This document shows, piece after piece, positions 2,497 through 27,231 of a stretch of 64,000 bases of DNA (position 1 is the first letter of the stretch; each line of letters begins with the position of its first letter). The DNA comes from a virus, in the IMG/VR virus record IMGVR_UViG_3300042691_042003, positions 62,001 to 126,000 of that record; one strand, 5' to 3'. The notes under the pieces are model-generated. The model was given only the letters and a program-made list of their open reading frames with translations. It had not been told where the DNA came from and did not search any database. The position numbers and the translations under genes were made by a program.

Positions 2497-3239
2497 AAAT
2501 ACAAGTAAAGAAAGTTTCTGTTCCTCATTTATCTTCTTTAATTAGAAGAATGTTGCTAATGGACACTTCAGTTTATCTGAACGTAGATTCAGAAAGAATT
2601 TGGTCCGATGTTTATACGCCAACAAAAGATGTAGTAAAATCAATATCTCTTCCTATTGATAATGTTCTACAATTTGATAAACCTCTTACCGAAACAATTA
2701 AGCTATCATTCTTTTCAGGCCAAAGACTTCTTGCTTGTTTAGGTTATTTTGATCCTCATAATCTTTCTGCTGAAATTAATGTTTTTAAAGATGAAGATGA
2801 TGGAATCCTTTATGCAGAAAAGATTATTTTTAAAGACAATCAGTTAAAAATTGAATTACATTGTCAAGATATTTCTCTTGGATTTACTTCAATGACTTCT
2901 GAACAAGTAAAACGAGCATTTGATCTTTCTACAAAAAATTATGAATTTAAGCTTTCTTCAGAAAATTTCTCTAAAGTTCTTTCTTTACAAACTCTCGATA
3001 AATCTGAATTGTTTACAATATACTCAGATAAATCAGGCGTACATATTAAATCGGATTCTTTCGACATTATTATAGACGACAATTATAAAAAAGTAGAAGA
3101 ACCAAGATCAATTTTTAAATCTTTCCTTCAAAGGATCGATAAAGAAACTTATACTGTTACCGTTTGTGAAAATAAAATGATTCTTGTTTCTGACGAATCA
3201 AATACGAATGTCGCATTAAATCTTGCAATCACAGAATGA
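2493..3239 (+). CDS. 45: Sliding clamp (T4 gp45-like)
   Basis: At 248 aa it is close to T4 gp45 (228 aa), and it directly precedes and overlaps (ATGA) the polymerase gene. The beta-strand-rich, weakly repetitive sequence and the C-terminal end MILVSDESNTNVALNLAI look like a processivity clamp. In T4, gp45 tethers DNA polymerase and also activates late promoters together with gp55, which matters here because a gp55-like protein is encoded at 14031. The identification rests on length, position and general sequence character; clamps diverge strongly, so a profile comparison would be needed for certainty. Confidence 0.65.
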   Translation: MKIQVKKVSVPHLSSLIRRMLLMDTSVYLNVDSERIWSDVYTPTKDVVKSISLPIDNVLQFDKPLTETIKLSFFSGQRLLACLGYFDPHNLSAEINVFKDEDDGILYAEKIIFKDNQLKIELHCQDISLGFTSMTSEQVKRAFDLSTKNYEFKLSSENFSKVLSLQTLDKSELFTIYSDKSGVHIKSDSFDIIIDDNYKKVEEPRSIFKSFLQRIDKETYTVTVCENKMILVSDESNTNVALNLAITE

Positions 3240-4432
3240 TTAACGTAGAAAATCTCTCTTTAGATGAAATAAAAAACCTCGATTTAGCATCTCTTTCAGA
3301 TGAAGATATTAAAAACCTAAAGGAAGAATCTCTAAAATGTTATACTACCGAGCAAGCAATTAAGCTTGCGATTAATTCAATCTATGGTGCATTTGCAAAT
3401 GAATATTTTCACTTCTATAACGTCGCAATTGCAGAAACAGTAACTCTACAAGGTCAAGATGCCATTCGATTCACTGAAAAGATGGTTGACAAATACTTTA
3501 AGGAATTCTTCCATAAAGATAAACAACTTCATCAAGCTTTGAATGTAAAAGAAGATTGGGAAGTTAAACCAATCAAAGGCCAAGTTTGGAAATATACCGA
3601 TACCGATTCAGGTTACTTAATCTTTGAAGAAGTAATGGAATCAGTTAATTGGCAAGGATCCGTAAAAGATTTCGTTCTTGCTATTAATTCAAATCGACTT
3701 GCTTCTTATATTAAGAAGGTTTTAGATGATTATGCAAAACAAAGACATACCGACAATTATCTAGATTTTGAATTAGAAACTATTGCAGAAAACGCCATTT
3801 GGGTAGCAAAGAAAAAATATATTCAAAATATTATATGGAAAGATGGAAAAGATTATGACAATCTTTCTTATATTAAGACAACAGGTCTAGAAATTATTCA
3901 GTCTTCGACTCCTCCTTTCTGTCGACAAAAACTTATCGATGCTGTAAAATATATCTTTTCAAAAGTAAAAATTACAGCAAAGGATAATTCGGATTTAGTT
4001 AAATTGATTAAAGAAATCAAACGAGAATTTAAAGTTTCAAATATCGAAAAGATTTCTATGACTCGTAGTATTTCTGAATATTCTAAATTTATCATTAACG
4101 ATACTGATAAATTTGAAATGAAAGGTGGTTGTCCAATTCATGTTCGTGCAGGTGGATATCATAATTACCTTCTTAATCAAGAAACGAAGCTAAAAGGAAA
4201 ATACGAAATGATTCGTTCAGGTGATAAAATTAAATGGTATCATGCTTCAGATTCTTTTTGTGATGTATTTGCTTATAAAGCTGGAAATTATCCTTTCGAA
4301 TTTGCACCTAAAATGGATTTAGAAGTTCAATTTCAAAAAACAATTCTAGATCCTCTTAATCGAATTATTGTCCCTGCAGGTCTTCCTGCTCTACATCCTT
4401 CATTAGCTTATACTAGTGGAGCTCTATTTTAA
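3236..4432 (+). CDS. 43: DNA polymerase family B, C-terminal part (split gp43)
   Basis: This 398-residue protein starts just before polymerase motif B (KLAINSIYG, residues 43-51). It contains motif C (YTDTDS, near 121-126), then a thumb region with TTGLEIIQSSTPPFCRQKL, similar to the T4 gp43 segment around IMGMETQQSSTP. The exonuclease domain and motif A (DxxSLYPS) are missing. Nothing resembling them is present upstream, where the clamp gene occupies the DNA. The start overlaps the clamp stop (ATGA), so the short form is a real gene and not a frameshift product. The N-terminal part must be encoded elsewhere. Polymerases split between motifs A and B are known in some Aeromonas T4-like phages (43A/43B, from memory). 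Confidence 0.88.
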   Translation: MINVENLSLDEIKNLDLASLSDEDIKNLKEESLKCYTTEQAIKLAINSIYGAFANEYFHFYNVAIAETVTLQGQDAIRFTEKMVDKYFKEFFHKDKQLHQALNVKEDWEVKPIKGQVWKYTDTDSGYLIFEEVMESVNWQGSVKDFVLAINSNRLASYIKKVLDDYAKQRHTDNYLDFELETIAENAIWVAKKKYIQNIIWKDGKDYDNLSYIKTTGLEIIQSSTPPFCRQKLIDAVKYIFSKVKITAKDNSDLVKLIKEIKREFKVSNIEKISMTRSISEYSKFIINDTDKFEMKGGCPIHVRAGGYHNYLLNQETKLKGKYEMIRSGDKIKWYHASDSFCDVFAYKAGNYPFEFAPKMDLEVQFQKTILDPLNRIIVPAGLPALHPSLAYTSGALF

Positions 4433-4443
4433 AAATAAAAATT

Positions 4444-5628
4444 ATGTCAAAAGAATTTTCAATTAATGAATTACAAAAGGAGTTGAAGAAAGTAAACCCT
4501 TTTGGAGATGTAATCAGTAAATCTGATTTCTCAAAAATTACTGAATGGATTGACACTGGAAATTATCATCTGAATGCAGTATTTTCAGGTGATCTTTTTG
4601 GTGGTATACCTAACAATCGTACAATCTGTCTTGCAGGTGAATCAGGTACAGGTAAAACATTCCTTCTTCTAAATATGTGTCGAGAAGCACAAAGAAAAGG
4701 ATATTATGTAATTTACTACGATACCGAAGGCGCAGTTGATGTAGATAATGTACAAAATTTTGGAATTGATCCAGAAAAATTTGACCATCAACCTATGTCT
4801 GATCTTGCAAAATTTAGAACTTCAGTTACAACTCTTTGTAAGAAAATGATGGAAGCCAAAGAAAAAGGTTATAAAACACCTAAAATTATGGTTTGTCTTG
4901 ATTCTCTAGGTATGCTTGCCACAACAAAAGAGATTGATGATGCTATGAGTGGTAATACAGCTGCAGATATGACTCGTGCTAAAATGGTTCGTTCTCTTTT
5001 CCGTATTATCACTTCGGATCTTACAGGTCTTGGAATTCCTTTTATTTTTACGAATCATACATATGCTTCTACTGGAATGTTTCCAACAATTAATCTTTCA
5101 GGAGGAGGTGGTCTTGTTTATTCTGCTTCTGTAATTCTTGCTCTTTCCAAAGCACAAATTAAAGAAGGAACTGTTCAAACAGGAATTATTGTATCGGTTA
5201 AAACCCTTAAAAATCGTTTCGGTAAACCTATTCCTATTAAGTTTCATATTCGTTGGGATCGAGGAATGAATCCTTACATTGGTATGGAAGAATACATTTC
5301 ATGGGACACTTGTGGAATTCAAAAAGGCAATATTATTTCTCAAAAAGATTATGATAAGCTTTCAGATAAAGATAAAGCTGAAGCAAGTCCTTTTCAAGCA
5401 AATGGAAATACTGTTTACTTCGTTCCTAAAGAAACAGCAAGGAATTTTATTGTAAAACATCTTGGTCGTGGAGTTTCACCTCAAGAATTCTTCACCCCTG
5501 AAGTATTTTCTACTGAAGTTTTAGAACAAATTAACGAAAAGAAAATTAAGCCGAGATTTAGTTACGGAACTGAACAATCCGATGTAGAAGAAATCGAAGC
5601 ATTCTTAATTGGTGGAGATGATGAATAA
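4444..5628 (+). CDS. uvsX: UvsX recombinase (RecA family)
   Basis: At 394 aa it matches T4 UvsX (391 aa). It catalyses ATP-dependent strand invasion for recombination-dependent replication and repair. The Walker A motif GESGTGKT is at residues 65-72 and the Walker B-like IMVCLDSLG at about 148-156. The segment IPFIFTNHTYASTGMF is typical of the RecA core, and the Gly-rich LSGGGGLVYSAS loop matches DNA-binding loop 2. It lies 11 bases after the polymerase gene and before gp41, forming a replication/recombination operon. Confidence 0.93.
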   Translation: MSKEFSINELQKELKKVNPFGDVISKSDFSKITEWIDTGNYHLNAVFSGDLFGGIPNNRTICLAGESGTGKTFLLLNMCREAQRKGYYVIYYDTEGAVDVDNVQNFGIDPEKFDHQPMSDLAKFRTSVTTLCKKMMEAKEKGYKTPKIMVCLDSLGMLATTKEIDDAMSGNTAADMTRAKMVRSLFRIITSDLTGLGIPFIFTNHTYASTGMFPTINLSGGGGLVYSASVILALSKAQIKEGTVQTGIIVSVKTLKNRFGKPIPIKFHIRWDRGMNPYIGMEEYISWDTCGIQKGNIISQKDYDKLSDKDKAEASPFQANGNTVYFVPKETARNFIVKHLGRGVSPQEFFTPEVFSTEVLEQINEKKIKPRFSYGTEQSDVEEIEAFLIGGDDE

Positions 5629-5935
5629 AGATTCGATTAAGATTAAATATCTTATCGGCTCTTTTCGTGATGAACCAAATTATCCAACTTATGAAGATTT
5701 TCTTTTTCTAATGGAAAATTGGTTTTATCATGAAGATGGAAAACATTTTATTCACACATATAGAGCCGTAGAAGAAACAGGTAATCCTTGTTTTACGAAT
5801 AATATCCTTCAGGAAAAGCTAAACGGAGACGAGAAGATCACAAAAGATCTTCTCGATTCTCTATTAAATGAAGGTAAAATTAGAGTAATTAAAGAGACTC
5901 GTTTCACGACATATTATGAAATCCTAAAAAATTGA
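5618..5935 (+). CDS. Hypothetical protein between uvsX and gp41
   Basis: About 105 aa; ATG at 5618 or 5621 both fit, and an upstream TTG (5609) is less likely. A GGTGGAG sequence just upstream, inside the end of uvsX, may help initiation. The first part (PNYPTYEDFLFLMENWF) and the last part (LLDSLLNEGKIRVIKETRFTTYYEIL) resemble a small winged-helix fold. The position between recombinase and helicase suggests a replication accessory role, but nothing is recognised with confidence. Confidence 0.55.
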   Translation: MMNKDSIKIKYLIGSFRDEPNYPTYEDFLFLMENWFYHEDGKHFIHTYRAVEETGNPCFTNNILQEKLNGDEKITKDLLDSLLNEGKIRVIKETRFTTYYEILKN

Positions 5936-5952
5936 TCTTACATATAAAAAAT
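5936..5952 (+). promoter_or_regulatory. Candidate middle-type promoter before gp41
   Basis: TCTTACATATAAAAAAT lies 15-31 bases before the gp41 start. The same TCTTACATAT core occurs before the clamp loader (28972) and the topoisomerase gene (49602, TTCTTACATATTATAAA). All three precede DNA replication genes, which suggests a shared promoter class. Confidence 0.45.
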
Positions 5953-5966
5953 AATCTAAATAAAAT

Positions 5967-7265
5967 ATGGTTGGATCTACAGAATTTGAAAAAATATTCT
6001 ATCTTTATACAAGACAGAATCCAAAATATCTTAAAACAGTAAATGAAGATTATTATGAAAATTCTGAAATAGGAACACTTCATTCGGTAACAAAACAATT
6101 CTTCGATAGATTTAATCAAGTTCCTTCTAAAGAACAACTTAAAGTTGTTTCGAAACAAGATAAATTTAAAGAAAGAATTTCTGATTCGATTATCGATATT
6201 ATTTTCGATGAACCTATCGAATCTTATGATACTGAATGGATTGAAGAAACCTGCCAATCTTGGATTCTTTGGAAATCTTTAGATAAATCTCTTGTAGATA
6301 CTCTTGAATACGTAAAGACTGTAAAAGTTACTCCTAACAATGTTAAAGATATTATTAATAAGGTTAAATCTCTTATTAATGATCGAAATAATATCACATT
6401 TAATCAAAACTTAGGAAAGAATTTTTTTGAAGTCGAATCACATATCCCAGAACAAAATTCTAAAATTACAACAGGACATCGATTTGTAGATCAATTCACA
6501 GGTGGATATCGAACAAAATCTCTTGTTGTTTATGCAGGTGAACAAAATATTGGTAAATCTATTTGGTTATCAAACGATGCAGTAAATTATGTTCGTGCTG
6601 GATTAGATGTTGCAGTCATTACTGCTGAAATGGCAGATATTGATTTTATTCATCGTATCGGTTCTAATTTGCTTAATATTCGACTTACTGAATATGAAAA
6701 GCTAAGTAAACAACCTAATTTTATTAAGACTCGTCTTTCATCTATAACCGATGGAATTATTCCTCCAGGGAATCTTTTTGTTAAAGAATATCCAACTTCA
6801 CAAGCAACAGTTCCTGATATCGAATCTTATTTAAAAGAGCTAGAAACTGTAAATGGGATAAAATTAAAAGTTATCGTCATTGACTATATAAATATTCTAT
6901 CGAATCATAGAAATCCAAATTCGGAAAATACTTATATGAAGATTAAGCAAATTGCAGAAGATCTTCGTGCTATGGCTGTTAGAAATGAATGGGTTGTTAT
7001 AACAGCAACTCAAATTAATCGAGGTGGATATGATTCAACAGAAATTACAATGAACCATATTGCTGAATCTGCAGGTCTTTCACATACTGCGGATATTATT
7101 TATGGAATTATACAAGACACTAATATGCATATGAATAATGAATATTGGTTAAAAATACTTAAAGTCAGAAACGGAACCGGTAAAAATAGTCGATGCATGT
7201 ATAATATCGATTATAATTACATGAGATTGATCGAATCCGATACAATCATAAACTCAACAATTTAA
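5967..7265 (+). CDS. 41: Replicative DNA helicase (gp41, DnaB family)
   Basis: The 432-residue protein is close to T4 gp41 (475 aa). It would unwind DNA ahead of the fork as a hexamer with primase. The C-terminal RecA-like core has Walker A GEQNIGKS (191-198), a Walker B strand ending VIVIDYINIL (about 303-312), and the DnaB-type motif VITATQINRGGYDST with the conserved Gln. The N-terminal 150 residues are helical, as in the DnaB N-terminal domain. It is followed two bases later by a small gene and then gp47. Confidence 0.9.
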   Translation: MVGSTEFEKIFYLYTRQNPKYLKTVNEDYYENSEIGTLHSVTKQFFDRFNQVPSKEQLKVVSKQDKFKERISDSIIDIIFDEPIESYDTEWIEETCQSWILWKSLDKSLVDTLEYVKTVKVTPNNVKDIINKVKSLINDRNNITFNQNLGKNFFEVESHIPEQNSKITTGHRFVDQFTGGYRTKSLVVYAGEQNIGKSIWLSNDAVNYVRAGLDVAVITAEMADIDFIHRIGSNLLNIRLTEYEKLSKQPNFIKTRLSSITDGIIPPGNLFVKEYPTSQATVPDIESYLKELETVNGIKLKVIVIDYINILSNHRNPNSENTYMKIKQIAEDLRAMAVRNEWVVITATQINRGGYDSTEITMNHIAESAGLSHTADIIYGIIQDTNMHMNNEYWLKILKVRNGTGKNSRCMYNIDYNYMRLIESDTIINSTI

Positions 7266-12469: not shown

Positions 12470-14029
12470 ATGTCTAAACTTAAAACAAGTTACAGTACAA
12501 TCTCTTTAAGAGATAATCTTTCTAATCTATACAAAGATTTAGATAAAAACACTTTGTACTCTTCTATTTTATCACTTCGCCTTAATACAGTTTTAGAAAT
12601 GCAAAAAAATGAAATACATTCTTCTATTTTTTCTGATTCTGACGAAGATAAAGGATTTATTTCTCGTCTTTCTATTGTAGAAAATTTGATTAAAGATTTG
12701 AAGATGTATAATTTTGTTCCTTCTATTAAGAAATTTATAGAAGAAAATGAACAAATCTTAGAAGAAAATAAATTAGAAATAGCTGTAGAGAAAACTTTGC
12801 ATTCTCTTAAAAATGATAAAAATACAAAATTCTACGAAAAAGCTATAATTGATCTAAAGGAATCTTTTGAAACAGAAAATCCTTTATTTTCTATCGTAGA
12901 AAATATGAAACAGCACGTTTGGATTCCTTCTATTAAAAATCTTTATGAATTTGCTAAATTTCAAAAAGGATCTATTACTGAAGTAAACCCTAATTTTAGA
13001 GTAACTAAAATTTATTCTCCAGTAGAACCTATAAATGAAAATTCATTTAATTTTTATTCTTCAGGAAAGGTTCTTAATTATAATGACGGTGAAATTACTG
13101 AATCAGAATCTAAAACTTCGGAAGATTTTAATTTCTTAGTTTCTATTGTTGAATCTGCTAAAATTACAGATAATAATATTAGATTCCTATTTAATAATTC
13201 AATTCTTGATATTAAATTAGGAGAGGATAAAAAAGCCTTAGTAAATCATAAAATTGTTGAATCTAAAAATTTAAGAGATTATCTTCTTTCAACTGCTTTA
13301 GTTCCTTATTCAGAAAAAAATAAAGTAGCTATTTTCGAAAGAGCTCTCGAAAAAGGATCAGATATTAAAGAAATCGATCTTGGATATAAAGTTACTTCTA
13401 ATATATATGAAGGTCTTTCTTGTTCTATATTTAATTCAAATAACAGAATTTTTATTCAGAAAGTAAATAAAGGAATGAAAGAAAATTCTATAGTTGAAGC
13501 TGAATCTCCTTCTGATGCAGTTAATATTGTTAAGAATTTTATGAATTTTGATATTTCTGAATCTATTAAGGATTTAATTGTAACAGAATCTATTGAAATT
13601 GCTAAAAGAAAAGAAGAAACTGAAAAAATTAAAAATCGAATTGCTTTCTTAATGGAAAAGCTTGCTGAAGTAGAATCAGTTGAATCAGAAATTGGGAAGA
13701 ATCCTAGAATTTTAGAAGCTAAAAAACTTCTTGAAGATCAAATAATTGCTCAAAATAAAAAATTAAGTGTAATTGAAGGTGTAGAAATTCCTTTCACTCC
13801 TTCTATGGGAGGTCCTAAAGTAGGAACCGCTAAGATTGCAACAAAAAATGATTTAAAAGCTGGCAAAGAATACACATTAAATGGAAAAGGAGGATATATT
13901 TTCCAGGGTGTTGCCGATGATATTTATATTTTTAATCATAAAGATGAAACCGATCCTTCACCTATTCATATGAATAATGTAGAGGTAGAAAATTCTATCT
14001 CAAAAGGAGAAATCACTGAATGTTATTAA
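12470..14029 (+). CDS. Probable virion protein, 519 aa
   Basis: Not recognised. The N-terminal 120 residues are helical. The middle is mixed, with many Glu/Ser-rich segments. A coiled coil lies at about 375-440. The last 65 residues (TKNDLKAGKEYTLNGKGGYI to the end) form a small beta domain that is clearly related to the C-terminal domain of the protein at 16620 (SDMKPGKEYVL..., YQGVTDGVHIF..., SVISKGGVVEV). Possible L/I-x-E cleavage sites are numerous. The location beside tagged proteins and the late sigma gene suggests a head or scaffold component. GATTATAATAAAAAAAT upstream (12445) may be a weak late-type promoter. Confidence 0.6.
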   Translation: MSKLKTSYSTISLRDNLSNLYKDLDKNTLYSSILSLRLNTVLEMQKNEIHSSIFSDSDEDKGFISRLSIVENLIKDLKMYNFVPSIKKFIEENEQILEENKLEIAVEKTLHSLKNDKNTKFYEKAIIDLKESFETENPLFSIVENMKQHVWIPSIKNLYEFAKFQKGSITEVNPNFRVTKIYSPVEPINENSFNFYSSGKVLNYNDGEITESESKTSEDFNFLVSIVESAKITDNNIRFLFNNSILDIKLGEDKKALVNHKIVESKNLRDYLLSTALVPYSEKNKVAIFERALEKGSDIKEIDLGYKVTSNIYEGLSCSIFNSNNRIFIQKVNKGMKENSIVEAESPSDAVNIVKNFMNFDISESIKDLIVTESIEIAKRKEETEKIKNRIAFLMEKLAEVESVESEIGKNPRILEAKKLLEDQIIAQNKKLSVIEGVEIPFTPSMGGPKVGTAKIATKNDLKAGKEYTLNGKGGYIFQGVADDIYIFNHKDETDPSPIHMNNVEVENSISKGEITECY

Positions 14030-18297: not shown

Positions 18298-19911
18298 ATG
18301 GCCGGTTTTGTAAATCGAGACGAAACTTCACAAGGAGCACCGACTCCTGCTGCAAGAAATTTAGTCAGTAAAGCATTAAAATCTCTTTCATCATTTGGAA
18401 TGATGTATGATGATATGGTGCTTAAAAATTCTAAAGCTATTGGTATTAATGAAGATCGATATGGTTGGAGGATGGATCCTCGAAATGTTGCAGGAGGAGA
18501 ATATGACGATTATGCACTTTTTGCTAATCTTTCAATGACTGATATCAATCTTAGAAAATCGATTTCTATTTTTGATAAATCATATCCAAAGAAAAGAGAA
18601 GATTTAAGAAAATTCGCTATCCAAGATGAAATTGAAGAAATTCTAGATACCCTTTGTGATGAAGCAATTGTTTATGACGATAAAAATTATTTTTGTTTCC
18701 CTCTCGCTTTTGATGATGAAACTCTTGAACCTGGAACTCTTGAAGCAATAAAAATTGCTCTTGATACTAATTTTAAAAGAATTTATCAGTATTTTGGATT
18801 TAATAATGATATAGCTGGATGGTCTTATTTCCGTAAATGGTTAGTTGATGGTTATCTTGCTTTTGAAATTATCTACAATAAAGATCAAACAAGAATTATT
18901 GGATTTAAAGAACTTGATCCTATTTATCTTGAGCCGGGTCTCGATAAAGAAGGAAAGAAAATTTGGAAACAATTTAAAGGTCAACCTAACAAAGAAAGAC
19001 TTATTTATGATTCACAAGTAATTTATATTTCATATGCAAACGTAAATACTGTTAATCGAGTTTCTTATGTTGAAAGATTAATTCGTTCTTTTAACCTTTT
19101 AAGGATTATGGAACATTCTAGAGTTATTTGGGCAACTGTTAACTCTTCATTTAAGACTAAATTTGTTATTCCAGTTGGAGGAAAATCAAAAACTCGAGCT
19201 AAACAATCTCTTGGAGTTCTTATGCAGAATTACAGAGAACAAATTGATTTTGATACTGATTCAGGAGAACTAAAAGTTAATGGTAAACCAATGATGCCTT
19301 TCAATAAAGAATATTGGTTACCTTCCGGTGAAGCTGGAGAACCAACTATTGAAACAATCGGCAATGATGGACCTGATCTTTCAGATACTGAAGCTCTTAA
19401 ATATTTTAGAGAGAAGCTGATTAAGGTTTCTAAAATCCCCCTTTCAAGATTTGATATGGAATCTCCTCCTTCTTGGGAAATGAATGCTGAAGGGATGACT
19501 AGAGATGAAATTAAATTTGGTCGTTTTATTACTCGTCTTCGTTCTGTATTCCAAGAAATTCTAGTAAAACCTCTTTGGATTCAAATGTGTTTAGATTTCC
19601 CTGAATTGAAAGATGATGATGCGTTTAAAGCACAAATTGGAGTAAAATATCATAAATATAATATTTTTGAAGAAATGAAAGAAATTGAAATTCTTCAAAA
19701 AAGATTAGATTTTGTAACTTCAATGAAAGATGGCCTAGTTGAAACCGATGCAAATATGAATGAAATTAAATATTTTGCTTCTGAATTCTTAATACAAAGA
19801 TTCTTAGGTCTTACTCCGGATGATCTAAGAGTTAATAGAAAACTTAAAGAAATTGAAGATCGAGAAAAGATAGAATTAGCTAAAAAATCAGCTGAAGCTA
19901 CTGGAATATAA
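18298..19911 (+). CDS. 20: Portal vertex protein (gp20)
   Basis: 537 aa (T4 gp20 is 524). Forms the dodecameric ring through which DNA enters and leaves the head and on which head assembly starts. Recognisable segments include YDDYALFANLSMTDINLRKS near the N-terminus and ILDTLCDEAIVYDD. In the C-terminal half, MESPPSWEMNAEGMTRDEIK and FGRFITRLRSVFQEILVKPL match T4 portal motifs of the type EMTRDEIKFTKFI. It is followed by the protease gene, as in T4. Confidence 0.93.
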   Translation: MAGFVNRDETSQGAPTPAARNLVSKALKSLSSFGMMYDDMVLKNSKAIGINEDRYGWRMDPRNVAGGEYDDYALFANLSMTDINLRKSISIFDKSYPKKREDLRKFAIQDEIEEILDTLCDEAIVYDDKNYFCFPLAFDDETLEPGTLEAIKIALDTNFKRIYQYFGFNNDIAGWSYFRKWLVDGYLAFEIIYNKDQTRIIGFKELDPIYLEPGLDKEGKKIWKQFKGQPNKERLIYDSQVIYISYANVNTVNRVSYVERLIRSFNLLRIMEHSRVIWATVNSSFKTKFVIPVGGKSKTRAKQSLGVLMQNYREQIDFDTDSGELKVNGKPMMPFNKEYWLPSGEAGEPTIETIGNDGPDLSDTEALKYFREKLIKVSKIPLSRFDMESPPSWEMNAEGMTRDEIKFGRFITRLRSVFQEILVKPLWIQMCLDFPELKDDDAFKAQIGVKYHKYNIFEEMKEIEILQKRLDFVTSMKDGLVETDANMNEIKYFASEFLIQRFLGLTPDDLRVNRKLKEIEDREKIELAKKSAEATGI

Positions 19912-19956: not shown

Positions 19957-21801
19957 ATGAGCAATTATTTACTTGTACTAGAAAGATCTGAAGGTAATCT
20001 TGCAGTTTCGAAAGAAGGCGATAAGTATGTCCTAGAAGGAATTTTTACTGAAATCGGAGTAAAGAATAAAAATAATAGAATTTACGACGAAAAAGAATTA
20101 CTTCCACATATTGAAGAGCTACAAACAAAATTAAAAGGAAATAAACTTCTTGGAGAACTAGATCATCCTAAATCTTTTGATATTTCTCTTAGAAATGCAT
20201 CACATGTAATAGAAGATATTAGCTATGATAAAGGGTCTAAGAAAGTTACTGGTAGAATTCGTTTACTTAATACGGATGCCGGTAAACAAGCTATGGCTCT
20301 TGTTGACGCTGGAGTTCCTCTTCATATTTCTAGTAGAGCTGCTGGTGTTGTTGAAGGTAATGGTCATGTAAAAATTAAGAAAATGTTTACTTATGATTTA
20401 GTTGCAGATCCTGGATTTGCTAACGCTGAATTAAAAAGAGTAAACGAATCTTTTGGATTTTCTGATGACGATTTAATTCAAATATTTGAAATTCCTAGCA
20501 CAATAGACGAATCATTTGTTGATGATAAATATACAAAACAAACAAAAAAAGAAGAAATGGATTCTAATCAATACATCAAGGTTGAGGATTTCAATGAATA
20601 TACCAAGCATTTAAAAGAAGAAATCGACGGATTGAAAAAATCTTTAACCGAATCTAAAAATTCAAACGATTCTGAAATCAATGAAGGTTTAGTTCGTTAT
20701 GCTGAAGAAACAGCAAAGAGAGTAAATCAAATCCAAGAATATGTTGGAAAACTTGCCGAATCGGTTGATGGTCTTATTTCACATAACGATTATATCGTTG
20801 AAAATCTAGAAAAAGTTAAAGATTATGCTGAAATGGTTGGAGAAAGATCTAATCAAGGTATTAATTATGCTGAGAAGCTTGCTGAATCGGTAGATCATCT
20901 TATCGAATATACCAAGATAATTGCTGAGAAAGCTGATCAAGGTATCGAATACACTAAGCATATTGCTGAAATGACAGATAATAATATCGAATACACAAAG
21001 CACGTTGCTTTAAAAGCTGATCAAGGTATCGAATACACTAAGTATATCGCTAATGAAAATTCTAATCGTTGGAATTATCAAACCTATATGAATGAGCAAC
21101 TTGATAATGTAATTTCTCATAACGATTATATCGTTGAAGGAACTTCTTCTATTATTGAATATACTGAATATCTCAAAGAACAAACCGAAAATCTTGCTAA
21201 TTACATGAACCATGTGGTTGAAAAGATTAATGAAGGATTTGTTCCTAATTCTTTTGAACCTAAAGATGATTTTGAAAAAGAAATTTCTGAAAAAATCGGA
21301 TCTATTTTAGAATCAGTTAAAGAAGAGGTTTCTTTTGAAAAGAAAGATAATAATTTGAATTTCTTAAATTTCCTTTCTGAAAGTAAAAGAAATCAATTCC
21401 ATTCTCTTAACGATGATATGAAAGAAAGAGTTATTTCTACATTTGAATCTAATAAATATTATGGTTCTGCTGATGCAGAAAAGCTTTTCGAATCTATCTT
21501 TATTATTCAAGCCCCTGTAATGAATTGGCTATCTAATATGCCTTCTAAATACAGAGAAGCATGGAACGGACTTAATGAATCTCAGAAAAATGCAATCAAA
21601 GCTCAAGCTTCTGTTAGAAATCTTGATACTCAATACAAAATTGACGATTTCTGGTCTACAAGAGATTTAAGAACTGTTAAAGTTGAAACTCCTCTTACTG
21701 AATCTAATGAAACAGTAATTGAAGAATCCCCTAAATATGTAACTCCTTCTACATATATGCAAACAGTTGAAGACGAATTAAGAAGGAGATTTAAAAGATA
21801 A
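19957..21801 (+). CDS. 21: Prohead protease fused to scaffold core (gp21-gp22-like)
   Basis: Residues 1-165 form a gp21-type prohead protease with catalytic His70 (GELDHPKSF) and Ser125/126 (PLHISSRAAG). It would cut head proteins after L/I-x-E type sites during maturation. Residues 170-614 are a long, charged coiled coil. This includes five 14-residue repeats (302-371) of the type IEYTKxIAEKADQG, a pattern expected of a scaffold such as T4 gp22. In T4 these are separate genes. An internal site, LKRVNE before SFGF (about residue 164), would let the protease release itself from the scaffold. Several later sites (EINE/G, LTE/S) could dismantle the core. It lies between portal and capsid genes. 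Confidence 0.85.
   Translation: MSNYLLVLERSEGNLAVSKEGDKYVLEGIFTEIGVKNKNNRIYDEKELLPHIEELQTKLKGNKLLGELDHPKSFDISLRNASHVIEDISYDKGSKKVTGRIRLLNTDAGKQAMALVDAGVPLHISSRAAGVVEGNGHVKIKKMFTYDLVADPGFANAELKRVNESFGFSDDDLIQIFEIPSTIDESFVDDKYTKQTKKEEMDSNQYIKVEDFNEYTKHLKEEIDGLKKSLTESKNSNDSEINEGLVRYAEETAKRVNQIQEYVGKLAESVDGLISHNDYIVENLEKVKDYAEMVGERSNQGINYAEKLAESVDHLIEYTKIIAEKADQGIEYTKHIAEMTDNNIEYTKHVALKADQGIEYTKYIANENSNRWNYQTYMNEQLDNVISHNDYIVEGTSSIIEYTEYLKEQTENLANYMNHVVEKINEGFVPNSFEPKDDFEKEISEKIGSILESVKEEVSFEKKDNNLNFLNFLSESKRNQFHSLNDDMKERVISTFESNKYYGSADAEKLFESIFIIQAPVMNWLSNMPSKYREAWNGLNESQKNAIKAQASVRNLDTQYKIDDFWSTRDLRTVKVETPLTESNETVIEESPKYVTPSTYMQTVEDELRRRFKR
20860..21069 (+). repeat. Five 42-base tandem repeats in the scaffold region
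   Basis: Units start at 20860, 20902, 20944, 20986 and 21028, each encoding 14 residues that begin INYAEK, IEYTKI, IEYTKH, IEYTKH and IEYTKY. Fourteen residues is two heptads, as expected for a coiled-coil rod that can lengthen by duplication. Confidence 0.85.
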
Positions 21802-21894: not shown

Positions 21895-23529
21895 ATGTAT
21901 TTAATTAACGAACAAGAAGTTTTCGGTAAATGGGCTCCAATTATCGAATCAACTACCGGCATTCAGGATCGTTCTAAAGTTGAATGGATGTCTAAGTACT
22001 GTCATTATCATGAATTGTACGAAAATAATAACCTCGCTCAACTTGGTGCTGTAAATGGCATGGGAGCTACTCGTTTCCCTGGAGATCCAGGAACTCAAAG
22101 TCAGTTCTTCTCTCAAGAAACTGGTTCTGGTGATAAGGCTCACACTCTTCTTCCTCTTGCTATGCAAGTTGCAGCTCAGACTGTAGGTCTTGATCTAGTT
22201 CCTGTTGTACCTATGCCTGGTCCTATGGGTGTTCTTACCTATCTTGACTTCGTATATGGTGGTGGTAAAACTAATGGTACTGGTGCTAACATTCCTCTCC
22301 TTGTAAAAGTTGATGTAGGATCTACTGCTGCTCCTGGTGCTGCTGGAACTACTGGAGGTATTACTTATACTTATGTAGGACCTTCTCGTATTGACGGTAA
22401 TGCTATATTCCATATTACTGGTTCTCTTACTACTGGTACTATTCTTTCTAATATGTATGCTTCTGCTGGTTCTACTAACCTTAACAATGTTAAATATACT
22501 GGAGCTGTTACTAAGGTTGAATTAGTTAAAGCTCTCGAAGATCATATTACTGGTTTCTCTGGAGATTCTCTTCGTGCTGGAATTTATGCAGATACTGCTA
22601 ATAATGGTGTTAATGATCCTCTTTCTCGTTTTGATGGTGAAGGAACTCAAGATAACATCATGAACTTAAGCCTTTTCAACAAATCTGTTGAAGCTAAAAC
22701 TTTCCAAGTTGCTGCTGCTGTTACTCGTGAGCAAGTTCAGGATCTTAAGCAATTTGGAGTTGATGCTGTTTCTCAGGTTGAATCTGTTCTTATTAACGAA
22801 CTTACTCAATCTATCAACAAGAACATTCTTTCTAGAATCTTCGCTCTTGGTGAAAGAAACCACTCTCAAGTTATTTCTACTCAAGGTCTTAACTTCTTCT
22901 TGAACCTTGGTTCTATTCCTAGATTAGTATCTTATGCTTCTGTTACTAACGCTCCTTATACTGCTTTTGCTTCTTATCTTAGCAGCAATTACAGTAATTT
23001 AACAGGTGCTACAATGAACGCAACTGAAAATTCTTCTTCACCTGCTGAAAACCTTTCTACTCGTCAGCGTAAGATCATGTCTAAGATCCTTGCAATTGCT
23101 AACCTAATTGCTATCCGTGGTCGTCGTGGTCCTGCTACTTTCGTAGTAACTAACGGTCAAGTATGTTCTGCTCTTCAGGATGTAGCTGGTTTCGTACCTG
23201 CTCCTATGGCTAACACCATCAATCAGATGAGCGGTTCTCTTTACCCAATCGGTACCCTTGCTGGTCTTGCTATCTACAACGATCCTAACATGGCTTGGAA
23301 CGATACTCGTTTCTGTGTAGGTCGTAAAGGTGATGGTAATTCTCCAGGACTCGTATTTATGCCTTACTTGATGGCTGAATCTGTTCAGACTATCGCTGAA
23401 GGTACTATGGCTCCTAAGGTTGCTGTTAAGTCTCGTTATGCTCTCGTTGAAGCTGGTTTCCACCCACAAACCATGTATTTAACTTCCGGAGTTCATATCG
23501 ATTCTCTTATCGCTGGAGGTTTAGTATAA
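21895..23529 (+). CDS. 23: Major capsid protein (gp23)
   Basis: 544 aa (T4 gp23 is 521). Builds the prolate or isometric head shell. The N-terminus MYLINEQEVFGKWAPIIEST resembles the T4 gp23 start, whose first 65 residues are removed by gp21. A likely cut here is after LYE43. Later motifs include ITREQVQDLKQFG-like (VTREQVQDLKQFGVDAVSQV) and RGRRGPATFVVTNGQV, which match the T4 capsid fold. Codon use is more biased to C-ending codons in the second half, as expected for a very highly expressed gene. A strong terminator follows. Confidence 0.95.
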   Translation: MYLINEQEVFGKWAPIIESTTGIQDRSKVEWMSKYCHYHELYENNNLAQLGAVNGMGATRFPGDPGTQSQFFSQETGSGDKAHTLLPLAMQVAAQTVGLDLVPVVPMPGPMGVLTYLDFVYGGGKTNGTGANIPLLVKVDVGSTAAPGAAGTTGGITYTYVGPSRIDGNAIFHITGSLTTGTILSNMYASAGSTNLNNVKYTGAVTKVELVKALEDHITGFSGDSLRAGIYADTANNGVNDPLSRFDGEGTQDNIMNLSLFNKSVEAKTFQVAAAVTREQVQDLKQFGVDAVSQVESVLINELTQSINKNILSRIFALGERNHSQVISTQGLNFFLNLGSIPRLVSYASVTNAPYTAFASYLSSNYSNLTGATMNATENSSSPAENLSTRQRKIMSKILAIANLIAIRGRRGPATFVVTNGQVCSALQDVAGFVPAPMANTINQMSGSLYPIGTLAGLAIYNDPNMAWNDTRFCVGRKGDGNSPGLVFMPYLMAESVQTIAEGTMAPKVAVKSRYALVEAGFHPQTMYLTSGVHIDSLIAGGLV

Positions 23530-24187: not shown

Positions 24188-25285
24188 ATGAAAGATTTAA
24201 ATTCTATAAAAGATTTATATTTGTATAAATTATACGAAGAAAATCTAATAAGTTCATTAGAAGAAATTTTAAATGAAGAAGATTCTAAGGAAGGAGAAAA
24301 AAAATCTCTTATCGATAAGATAAGAGATAAGATAAGGTCTTTGAGAGAAAAGATGCCAGAAAATCCTGATAATAAACCTGCTATTACTAAAAAAAGAGAA
24401 GCTATTTCAAATAAAATTGATACTCTTAAAGACCAAGTAGAAAAAGAGGAAAAAAAGGAGGAATCTAATGATAAAAAAATTAAAAGATTAGAAGAAGAAT
24501 ACAAAAAGGCTAAAGAAAATTATGAATCTCAGTATGCCGATTTAGTAGAAGCTGGTAAAAGTGCTAGAGAAGCTACTCATAAAATTCTTGAAAGTGGATT
24601 TTTTGGAAGAGTGAATTTTTTTGCTTGGTTATTTGTTAGTAGTAGAAGAGCTAAAACTAGGGTTGAATTTCTAGAAGGTCTTTCTAAAATGATTCCTAAT
24701 CAAGAAAAAGCTAAAATGGTTGATGATCAGCTTAATAAAGCTAAAGAAATCGCTGATTCTTTAACAAAACAAATGGATGAAGCTGAAGAAAGGGGAGAAG
24801 AATCTGCTAAGAAAACAGATCCAAAAAAATTAGAAAAAGCACAATCTTCTGAAACTCCTGAAGAAACTCCTGAAGAAACTCCTGAAGAAACTCCTGAAGA
24901 AACTCCAGAAAAAGGAGATGAAGAAAGGCAAAATTTAATGGGTTCCGGAAGTTCAGAAGAACCTAAAGAAGATGATCTAAAAAAAGAAGAACCTAAAGAA
25001 GATACAGAAGATGAGAAGAAAAAAATTGAATCTCAAATAGACGAATTAAAATCTAAATTAGAAGATGTTAAAAAATCGGCTGAAGAGAAAAAATCAGAAG
25101 GTGATGAAGAATCTTATAAATCAATAATGGATAACGTTGAAAAAATTCAAAATGTTATTAAAGAATTAGAAGATAAAAAATCAACATTAGAATCTTTTGA
25201 TGAAGATAGCTCTAAAATTTGGGCAATTAATTGGTTATTAAATGATCTTCAAAATAGAATTAATCTAGGAGAACTAAATGGTTGA
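24188..25285 (+). CDS. Acidic coiled-coil protein with TPEE repeats, 365 aa
   Basis: Highly charged, predicted almost entirely helical, with coiled coils at about 35-120 and 275-345. A moderately hydrophobic patch (RVNFFAWLFVSSRRAK, near residue 140-155) may be a membrane or partner contact. Five TPEE repeats form an extended linker near residue 223-242. The N-terminal segment SSLEEILNEEDSK contains a possible protease site (ILNE). It overlaps the next gene by 8 bases. Probably a virion internal or scaffold-like protein; no homologue recognised. Confidence 0.55.
   Translation: MKDLNSIKDLYLYKLYEENLISSLEEILNEEDSKEGEKKSLIDKIRDKIRSLREKMPENPDNKPAITKKREAISNKIDTLKDQVEKEEKKEESNDKKIKRLEEEYKKAKENYESQYADLVEAGKSAREATHKILESGFFGRVNFFAWLFVSSRRAKTRVEFLEGLSKMIPNQEKAKMVDDQLNKAKEIADSLTKQMDEAEERGEESAKKTDPKKLEKAQSSETPEETPEETPEETPEETPEKGDEERQNLMGSGSSEEPKEDDLKKEEPKEDTEDEKKKIESQIDELKSKLEDVKKSAEEKKSEGDEESYKSIMDNVEKIQNVIKELEDKKSTLESFDEDSSKIWAINWLLNDLQNRINLGELNG
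24852..24911 (+). repeat. 12-base tandem repeat (ACTCCTGAAGAA), about five copies
   Basis: Exact 12-base units encode TPEE repeats in the acidic coiled-coil protein. The last unit has one third-base change. Likely recent slippage expansion. Confidence 0.9.
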
Positions 25286-25766
25286 AATTCGTAGACAAAA
25301 TGCAGGCAAAACACCTACAAAATACGGAATAGTTACAAAAGGTCTAAAACCTAGATATAAAAAAGTTCTTAATGAAAATCCGGTTATTAAGAAATATTCG
25401 GATGATGATAGGTTCATACAGGCCATCTTCAGGATTGAAGATGAGAAGATAAGATTATCCCATTTACAAAGGCCGTTTGTTCACCCTGTGTCAAAAGAGA
25501 TATACACGTTTGAATGTATTAAAGACTCTTATAAAATATTTAATTGGGAATGTGCTTATTGTAAAATTCCAATACAATCGAGAATAGATAGATTTAGTCC
25601 TGATAATTTTACATGTGAAAAATGCTATAAGTACTATATTAAAGATTCTAAAAAAATAAATCAAAGAATTATTGAGTCTTCACTTTCTTTTACCGAAAAA
25701 TGTAAGAGGATGATGATAGATAATCAGAAATCATTCTTAAAATATCTAAAGAAAAATGAAAAATAG
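25278..25766 (+). CDS. Small zinc-ribbon-like protein, 162 aa
   Basis: Basic protein with a four-Cys cluster: C92 and C95 (CAYC), then C113 and C116 (CEKC). This spacing fits a zinc ribbon. A further Cys occurs at 80. The basic N-terminal region (GLKPRYKKVLNENPVIKKYS) could contact nucleic acid. It overlaps the preceding gene by 8 bases and the RimK-like gene by 11 bases. Base composition in 25400-25510 is a little less AT-rich than its surroundings. A late-transcription co-activator or a structural zinc protein are both possible; unproven. Confidence 0.6.
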   Translation: MVEIRRQNAGKTPTKYGIVTKGLKPRYKKVLNENPVIKKYSDDDRFIQAIFRIEDEKIRLSHLQRPFVHPVSKEIYTFECIKDSYKIFNWECAYCKIPIQSRIDRFSPDNFTCEKCYKYYIKDSKKINQRIIESSLSFTEKCKRMMIDNQKSFLKYLKKNEK

Positions 25767-27231
25767 GTTCGATTATTTTGATCAATTTGTTTTAAATGAA
25801 GCTAAGAAAAATAAAACCCCTAAGATTAAGGTTCTTATGCTCTCAAATATTAGTGAAGAATCTTATACTGTTCCTGCAGTTGAAGCCGAATGTAAAAAGA
25901 GGGGGATAGTTTTCCGTATTATCGATATTAACACTTGCTCTTTAATTAAAGATAAGAAAGGAGACGGTTATATTATAAATGATAAAACTAAGGTTCCTTT
26001 TAAAATAGATTCTGAAGACACAGCTATACTTACTAGAAGAGGAGTCGTTAGAAGTACTATGACGAGAGATCTTATTTCTCAATTAGAGGATGCCAATTTC
26101 TTTGTTGTTAATACTCTTGAATCTATTCTTGCTTGTGAGAATAAATTTGTCACTTCAAAAATTCTTATGAATGCTGGAATTCCAGTTCCTAAAATGGCAA
26201 TTGTTGATGGTGAAGAATCTATCGATTCAGCTCTAAAAGAAATAGGTGGTCAATTTCCTATAGTTCTTAAAATGCTTTCAGGATCTCATGGTATTGGAGT
26301 TTCTATTATTGAATCTCTCGCTTCTCTTAAATCGGTTTTACAAACTATGTGGAAAATCGATCCAAATATCGAAACTCTTATTCAAGAAAAAATTGATTCT
26401 GATTACGATCTAAGAATCCACGTTCTTACTAAAAGATTTAATTCTCCTTCTCCGGATGAAACCGATTCAGTTCTCCTTGGTTATATGAGACGTAATAGAG
26501 TTAAAAAAGATTTCAGAACTAATTATTCTCTTGGAGGAACGGTTGAAAAAACTAAGGTTACTCCTGAACAAGAAAAAATTGCGATTGAGGCTGCTAAAGC
26601 TGTAGGTTGTAATTGGTGCGGTGTTGATCTGATCGTTGATAAGAAAACGAAGAAAAATTATGTTCTTGAAGTTAATTCTTCTCCAGGAACACAAGGTTTG
26701 AAAAAAGCTACAGGAGTCGACGTAGTAAAAGATATAGTTGATTTTCTTTCGGATAAAAAGAATTGGATTAGATCTCGTAGAGTTATAGGTTTTAGAGAGG
26801 TAATAACAATTCCAGAAATAGGTGATGTTATTGCTAAATTTGATACTGGTAACGGAGCTATGTCTTGCTCATTAACTTACGATACTGCAGAATTAATTGA
26901 TGGAGATAAATTTATCGAATGGGAATTAGGAGGTAAAAAATTCAAAAGTAAAGTAGTAGGATTTTCTACTGCTGAAGTCGGTCCTAAAACACACGAAAGG
27001 CCTACTATTCTTATGGACATATCTTTTGCAGGTAAAACTTATAAAGATGTTGAAGTTTCTCTAGTAGACCGTAAAGAAAAATCTACTAAATTCTTAGTAA
27101 ATAGAAAATTCATGGAAAGAATAGGATGTTCTGTTTCTCCTTATAAAACATTTATGATTACTTCTTTTGATGGAGAATATTCAGCAAGAGATGCAAAAGG
27201 AGATCCACATGCAGGAATAAAATTTATATAA
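25756..27231 (+). CDS. Tagged RimK-like ATP-grasp ligase fused to a retropepsin-like (PF05618-type) domain
   Basis: Begins MKNRFDYFDQFVLNE before AKKNK, a head-targeting tag with a cut after Glu15. Residues 23-340 match RimK: the ATP-grasp loop VLKMLSGSHGIGVS (about 171), EKIDSDYDLRIHVL, KKDFRTNYSLGGTVEK, GVDLIVDKKTKKNYVLEV and NSSPG (metal-binding Glu and Asn, about 303-311). RimK enzymes add glutamate residues to protein C-termini, classically ribosomal protein S6. Residues 345-491 resemble the RimK-associated retropepsin-like domain (so-called ATP-dependent zinc protease). They carry FDTGNGAMSC with candidate catalytic Asp363, then ERPTILMDISFAGKTYKDVE and FLVNRKFMERIGCSV. A packaged, injected protein-modifying enzyme is inferred, analogous to the T4 Alt strategy but with different chemistry. 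Confidence 0.85.
   Translation: MKNRFDYFDQFVLNEAKKNKTPKIKVLMLSNISEESYTVPAVEAECKKRGIVFRIIDINTCSLIKDKKGDGYIINDKTKVPFKIDSEDTAILTRRGVVRSTMTRDLISQLEDANFFVVNTLESILACENKFVTSKILMNAGIPVPKMAIVDGEESIDSALKEIGGQFPIVLKMLSGSHGIGVSIIESLASLKSVLQTMWKIDPNIETLIQEKIDSDYDLRIHVLTKRFNSPSPDETDSVLLGYMRRNRVKKDFRTNYSLGGTVEKTKVTPEQEKIAIEAAKAVGCNWCGVDLIVDKKTKKNYVLEVNSSPGTQGLKKATGVDVVKDIVDFLSDKKNWIRSRRVIGFREVITIPEIGDVIAKFDTGNGAMSCSLTYDTAELIDGDKFIEWELGGKKFKSKVVGFSTAEVGPKTHERPTILMDISFAGKTYKDVEVSLVDRKEKSTKFLVNRKFMERIGCSVSPYKTFMITSFDGEYSARDAKGDPHAGIKFI

Follow-up and report, generated by a model that had tools for sequence, protein, structure and literature searches.

A protease-scaffold fusion gene with a predicted nested scaffold frame in a group of large tailed phages

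In the phage studied here the prohead protease and the internal head scaffold are one gene, and this fusion is a trait of a large group of phages, not a peculiarity of a single genome. Conservation and sequence context further indicate that the same gene very probably encodes a second, scaffold-only protein, predicted to be initiated at the internal Met201. We consider it probable that the gene works in the manner of the herpesvirus UL26/UL26.5 system, in which case a protease-scaffold protein and a Met201-started scaffold-only protein would both be made and would be freed by cuts at the junction of the two halves and near the C-terminus. We infer the cleavages, the internal initiation, the scaffold function and the ratio of the two proteins from sequences and models.

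The gene lies in what we call the window, the whole 64,000-nt stretch of DNA analysed, which is part of a virus record of 246,081 bases. As an earlier note on this DNA had stated, a single ORF (19957-21801, + strand) holds both a gp21-type domain and a long second half: it is complete and uninterrupted over 614 codons (614 aa), and it is open in all closed relatives. Its neighbours are a T4-type portal protein (gp20) gene upstream (18298-19911, +; Portal_T4, 8e-71) and a gp23-type major capsid protein gene downstream (21895-23529, +; Gp23, 8e-36), a place where T6 has 67-68-21-22. The protease family and fold, the position between portal and capsid genes and the phi-x-E type of Glu site are all as in T4 gp21 and gp22. 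Unlike T4, in which protease and scaffold are separate, as the earlier note says, and T6, which likewise carries 21 and 22 as two genes, the window has one fused gene whose scaffold half is not recognisably gp22, and no gene stands between those of portal and protease, the place of 67 and 68 in T6.

The distribution of the fusion is wide. All of the 80 loci fetched from IMG/VR with the fusion protein that were not cut by a contig end carry the whole fusion as one ORF, and it also occurs in huge-phage records of 462-735 kb, in Lak phages and in the cultured Tenacibaculum phages PTm1 and PTm5 (564 aa). The Lak-A1 homologue (595 aa) is open in code 11; that of Lak-B2 (locus 3376-4900) contains two in-frame TAG codons, read through as Gln with code 15, which leaves the fusion whole. 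PTm1 ORF-300 and the Lak homologues share the fused architecture and the junction phi-x-E, which in PTm1 is ISE, ending at residue 142, but in PTm1 the repeats differ and the internal Met is missing, and Lak has an acidic linker instead of the coil. Fusions of the window's relatives measure about 610 aa and those of the group with the 630-735 kb phages 700-860 aa, the increase coming from added 14-residue units; Lak phages (540 kb) depart from this trend, by which scaffold length might conceivably act as a ruler of head size. The PTm1 protein is annotated as 'prohead core scaffolding protein and protease', which is also the ordinary name of the unfused gp21 in T6, so annotations of this type are no sign that the fusion had been recognised. 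We found no description of a gp21-gp22 fusion or of a nested start in giant phages in the literature searched, a body of text outside which most subscription journals lie. Ribosomal protein S21, present in some freshwater Bacteroidota phages, had no match in the genome of the window phage.

The identity of the N-terminal half as a T4 gp21-type protease is well supported by profiles and by a predicted fold, and its activity, with phi-x-E specificity, is predicted from site enrichment. Within the domain (residues 5-160; 19969-20436, +), Pfam Peptidase_S77 matches residues 24-134 with 46.6 bits (cut-off 27), and the head maturation protease profile phrog_207 matches residues 13-272. AlphaFold, given 40 relatives, yields a model of the fusion that is poor as a whole (pLDDT 58); the first part of this model matches T4 gp21 (5jbl) in Foldseek with E 1.5e-9 and a TM of 0.78 of the target. 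His70, Ser125 and Ser126, which the earlier note had named in the gp21-type domain, are invariant among the 40 relatives. The 5jbl construct has Ala at the positions aligned to His70 (20164-20166, +) and Ser125 (20329-20331, +), as would be expected of an inactivated enzyme, and we therefore single out these two as catalytic. Asp147 (20395-20397, +), also invariant among the relatives aligned, is presumably the third member of the triad, by analogy with the family.

Directly behind this domain lies the candidate release site V-N-E/S (residues 162-165; 20440-20451, +). Across 55 distinct relatives N163 and E164 never vary, position 162 holds either Val or Ile, and 52 of the 55 have Ser or Ala directly after E164. 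The motif is kept in 16 of 16 lineages, these being clusters of relatives at 70% identity and not fully independent of one another. Separate gp21 proteins have a hydrophobic-x-E (phi-x-E) at the equivalent place, immediately past the final element of the protease domain: FLME/S in PAU, SIYE/S in CJLB-14, AVYE/A in Phosso, GIME/G in P-SSM3 and PLAE/N in Phynn. Autocleavage at the C-terminus has been shown for SPN3US gp245, after Glu203 (PMC5694885), and suggested for T4 gp21 (PMC9026906). Given the shared position and this known autocleavage, the junction is best seen as the protease's old autocleavage site, which would now join the protease to the scaffold.

It had also been pointed out that VNE/S follows the tag rule of the same phage, and indeed it agrees with the rule, F-[LIV]-N-E followed by S/N/G/A, of the window's eleven N-terminal tags. 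These capsid-targeting-like tags (F-[LIV]-N-E, in one case FNE, followed by S, N, G, A or Q) stand at ORF starts 11653, 14387, 14861, 15778, 16620, 29977, 30240, 30619, 30872, 31715 and 33430, all on the + strand, and the tagged ORFs probably make up a large set of internal head proteins. A 491-aa ORF (25756-27231, +) has a tag-like start, MKNRFDYFDQFVLNEA, and a DTGNGAMS motif; by eye it resembles an ATP-grasp ligase, and its product is possibly an enzyme packaged in the head.

The second half, about 450 residues long, is helical and scaffold-like, and it is by position, architecture and density of cleavage-type sites that we take it to be the scaffold. Where a 440-residue coiled coil had been described, the prediction gives a coil of about 217 residues (209-425; 20581-21231, +), modelled as long helices at low confidence (pLDDT ~50) and weakly matching chemoreceptor coils, then a separate conserved helical domain (437-567; 21265-21657, +), and finally a basic C-terminal helix (598-614, with the helix predicted over 598-612; 21748-21798, +), conserved and a candidate shell-binding tail. 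The reported 14-residue repeats are real as a periodicity (autocorrelation 0.23 at lag 14 vs ~0.05), but clear tandem units are confined to residues ~311-366 (20887-21054, +), and residues 321-360 are missing in most relatives; the periodicity is stronger still in the 735-kb phage, and the number of units varies. Folded alone, the domain 437-567 reaches a pLDDT of mostly 75-90. It has a match in PTm1; a structure search found no solved relative, and a BFVD search returned additional long entries that bear protease or scaffold annotations.

Sites of the phi-x-E type are 2.46 times as frequent in the family's scaffold part as in shuffled sequences, with spacings of one, three and four residues at or below expectation, and PTm1 has 30 against 12 expected (z 6.2). 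VNE/S, the one site named in the earlier note, is thus not the only site of cleavage type. A further candidate, L-T-E/S (580-583; 21694-21705, +), usually [LI]-N-E in the aligned relatives, lies about 32 residues from the C-terminus; phi-x-E/[SAGN] occurs near residue 582 in 12 of 16 lineages.

A variable linker of about 50 residues separates the junction from VEDF, the conserved beginning of the scaffold, and within it a Met is found in 55 of 55 relatives. In 14 of 16 lineages the distance from a Met to the F of VEDF is 9-14 residues, against an expectation of 8.2% each and 1.3 in total, the span having been set post hoc with the data in view. The same Met is present in 17 of 17 additional loci in which the linker is covered, all from one related group. 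On the other hand, the corresponding stretch of PTm1, whose fusion is more distant, lacks a Met, so the nested start is not universal. In the window this residue is Met201, the proposed internal start codon (20557-20559, +), which would open a nested scaffold-only frame of 414 aa (20557-21801, +).

The surroundings of this codon resemble those of a gene start. Bacteroidota initiate translation from A-rich, unstructured leaders (PMC6847099), and the host presumably belongs to this phylum, as the relatives PTm1 and Lak suggest. Gene starts of the window genome have A-rich leaders and no evident Shine-Dalgarno motif, and the 20 bases upstream of Met201 (20537-20556, +) reach 80% A, where the gene averages 39%. 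Its start-like score is the highest among the gene's internal ATGs and falls at the 96th percentile of the window's 354 internal ATGs; the linker Met is likewise the best-scoring internal ATG of its gene in 9 of 16 lineages vs 1.9 expected, and local folding at this ATG is among the weakest in the gene in 14 of 16. The stretch opened by Met201 is also tag-like, a property common to 2 of 440 internal Mets vs 11 gene starts. Positions -3 and -6, at which an adenine is helpful in Flavobacterium, do not always carry one. As a possible site of programmed frameshifting, the A7 run that precedes Met201 was rejected because it is not conserved.

There is also a strong synonymous signal. In the eight codons before the ATG, A occupies 76 third positions vs 49.3 expected from the usage of the same amino acids in the same genes (z 6.5; 0 of 300 random placements), and the excess stops at the ATG. 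The bias is mildly raised further upstream too (z 2.3-2.7, codons -48 to -37), is weak in the 735-kb phage and absent in Lak. Since a role of the Met at the protein level would not produce such a bias, it points to selection on the nucleotides before the internal ATG.

This bears on the strongest competing explanation, a strict fusion with no nested product, as the earlier note had it, in which every scaffold molecule would carry a protease and be cut at the junction as in P2 gpO, and Met201 would be kept for protein reasons, e.g., as the first hydrophobic residue before the coil. We regard it as unlikely, if far from negligible. In P2 the single protein gpO does both jobs (PMC7552001), PTm1 is a fusion that does without the internal Met, the junction site is invariant, and Met201 stands directly before the start of a conserved helix. 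What a strict fusion leaves unexplained is why a linker that varies elsewhere keeps a Met in preference to Leu, Ile or Val, and why a synonymous bias invisible to protein-level selection ends exactly at the ATG. It also sits poorly with the T4 prohead, where about 576 copies of gp22 accompany about 100 of gp21 (PMC5694885); a nested start would yield a T4-like excess of scaffold from one gene. The suggestion that the fusion fixes protease and scaffold at 1:1 is probably wrong, since a conserved internal ATG in a start-like context predicts extra scaffold-only protein.

The likeness to gp22 is one of place more than of sequence. Pfam and PHROG profiles in six frames found no gp22 in the 246-kb record, which may be incomplete, so that the separate gene the earlier note had asked for did not turn up. 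Of the alignments it had proposed, that with gp21 was borne out by profile and fold, whereas hhalign of the scaffold half with 22 gp22 sequences gave a probability of ~1%, and the gp22 profiles PF25623 and phrog_237 gave no family match. Reading the second half as gp22 is accordingly supported by architecture and by position, the scaffold coding region lying between the protease and the major capsid gene, but not by sequence. A resemblance of motifs to gp22 seen by eye was dropped, and tblastn matches that seemed to span gp21 and gp22 (Phynn, P-SSM3, CJLB-14) lie within gp21 and barely pass its end. A search for the C-terminal domain in another copy, as a scaffold gene of its own, found none, and the scaffold half showed no significant kinship to the genes that follow the protease gene in PAU, Phosso or CJLB-14. 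In the Sphingomonas phage PAU (fetched locus 2902-6037), the protease (gp151) and a coiled-coil-like ORF (gp155) are distinct and both precede the capsid gene; gp152, annotated as scaffolding, has the tag-like start MKTLTQLYEA.

The lack of gp22 kinship gives some room to a second alternative, that the C-terminal half serves to tether or target the protease to which it is attached and that the main scaffold is encoded elsewhere, e.g., by the coiled-coil ORF at 24188-25285 by the capsid gene or by ORF 12470-14029. The former is rich in coiled coil, the latter is also enriched in phi-x-E, and no gp22 counterpart has been confirmed in phiKZ-type giant phages (PMC5694885). Gene position, size, family-wide phi-x-E enrichment and the internal start nevertheless all suit a bulk scaffold, and ORF 24188-25285 is not enriched in phi-x-E, which makes this alternative quite improbable. 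ORF 12470-14029 (+; 519 aa), without known family, has 26 phi-x-E sites vs 13.7 (z 4.1), like the scaffold, and its product is possibly a head-core substrate of the protease.

If the gene does work in the herpesvirus manner, a minority of full-length molecules would co-assemble in the prohead with a majority of scaffold-only molecules via their common scaffold part, the C-terminal domain and basic tail contacting the shell. On completion of the prohead the protease would free itself by a cut after Glu164, release the shell by another near the C-terminus (~Glu582), and shred the coil at its many phi-x-E sites. In the herpesvirus system, an N-terminal protease is followed by a junction (R) site and a C-terminal (M) site 25 residues from the end, and UL26.5 is the scaffold-only product of a gene that starts inside UL26; in HSV-1, UL26 has 635 residues and is cut after 247 and 610, the long form making up ~10% of the scaffold (PMC12474303). 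The plan here is closely alike, with 614 residues, a junction at 164, a candidate C-terminal site at ~582 and a predicted start at 201, and the order of N-terminal protease, conserved junction motif and C-terminal scaffold is the same as far as architecture goes. Unlike in UL26/UL26.5, however, the nested start would be translational, on one message, cleavage is predicted after Glu and at many sites in the coil, and the genome is that of a tailed phage; the likeness drawn here is one of plan.

Related plans exist in other phages. Phage lambda has, in C and Nu3, a protease gene with a scaffold made from an internal in-frame start, the protease being of an unrelated family. P2 gpO combines an N-terminal self-cutting protease and a C-terminal scaffold in one protein (PMC7552001); it is much smaller, at 284 aa, and is likened here by organisation alone. 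Because P2 and lambda show such plans, the plan itself does not decide between inheritance and convergence with herpesviruses. The gp21 protease is reported to be structurally related to that of herpesviruses (PMC5694885). We think it improbable that the UL26/UL26.5 plan was inherited in common with this large phage group, with the split gp21 and gp22 of T4 then derived.

The cultured phage PTm1 makes the fusion and the predicted junction cut, though not the nested start, testable. More broadly, the jumbo and huge phages concerned, a large group known mostly from metagenomes, have no recognised gp22, and our analysis offers a candidate for their scaffold. An organisation best known from herpesviruses is now proposed, with the exact residues named, for tailed phages with a gp21-type protease.
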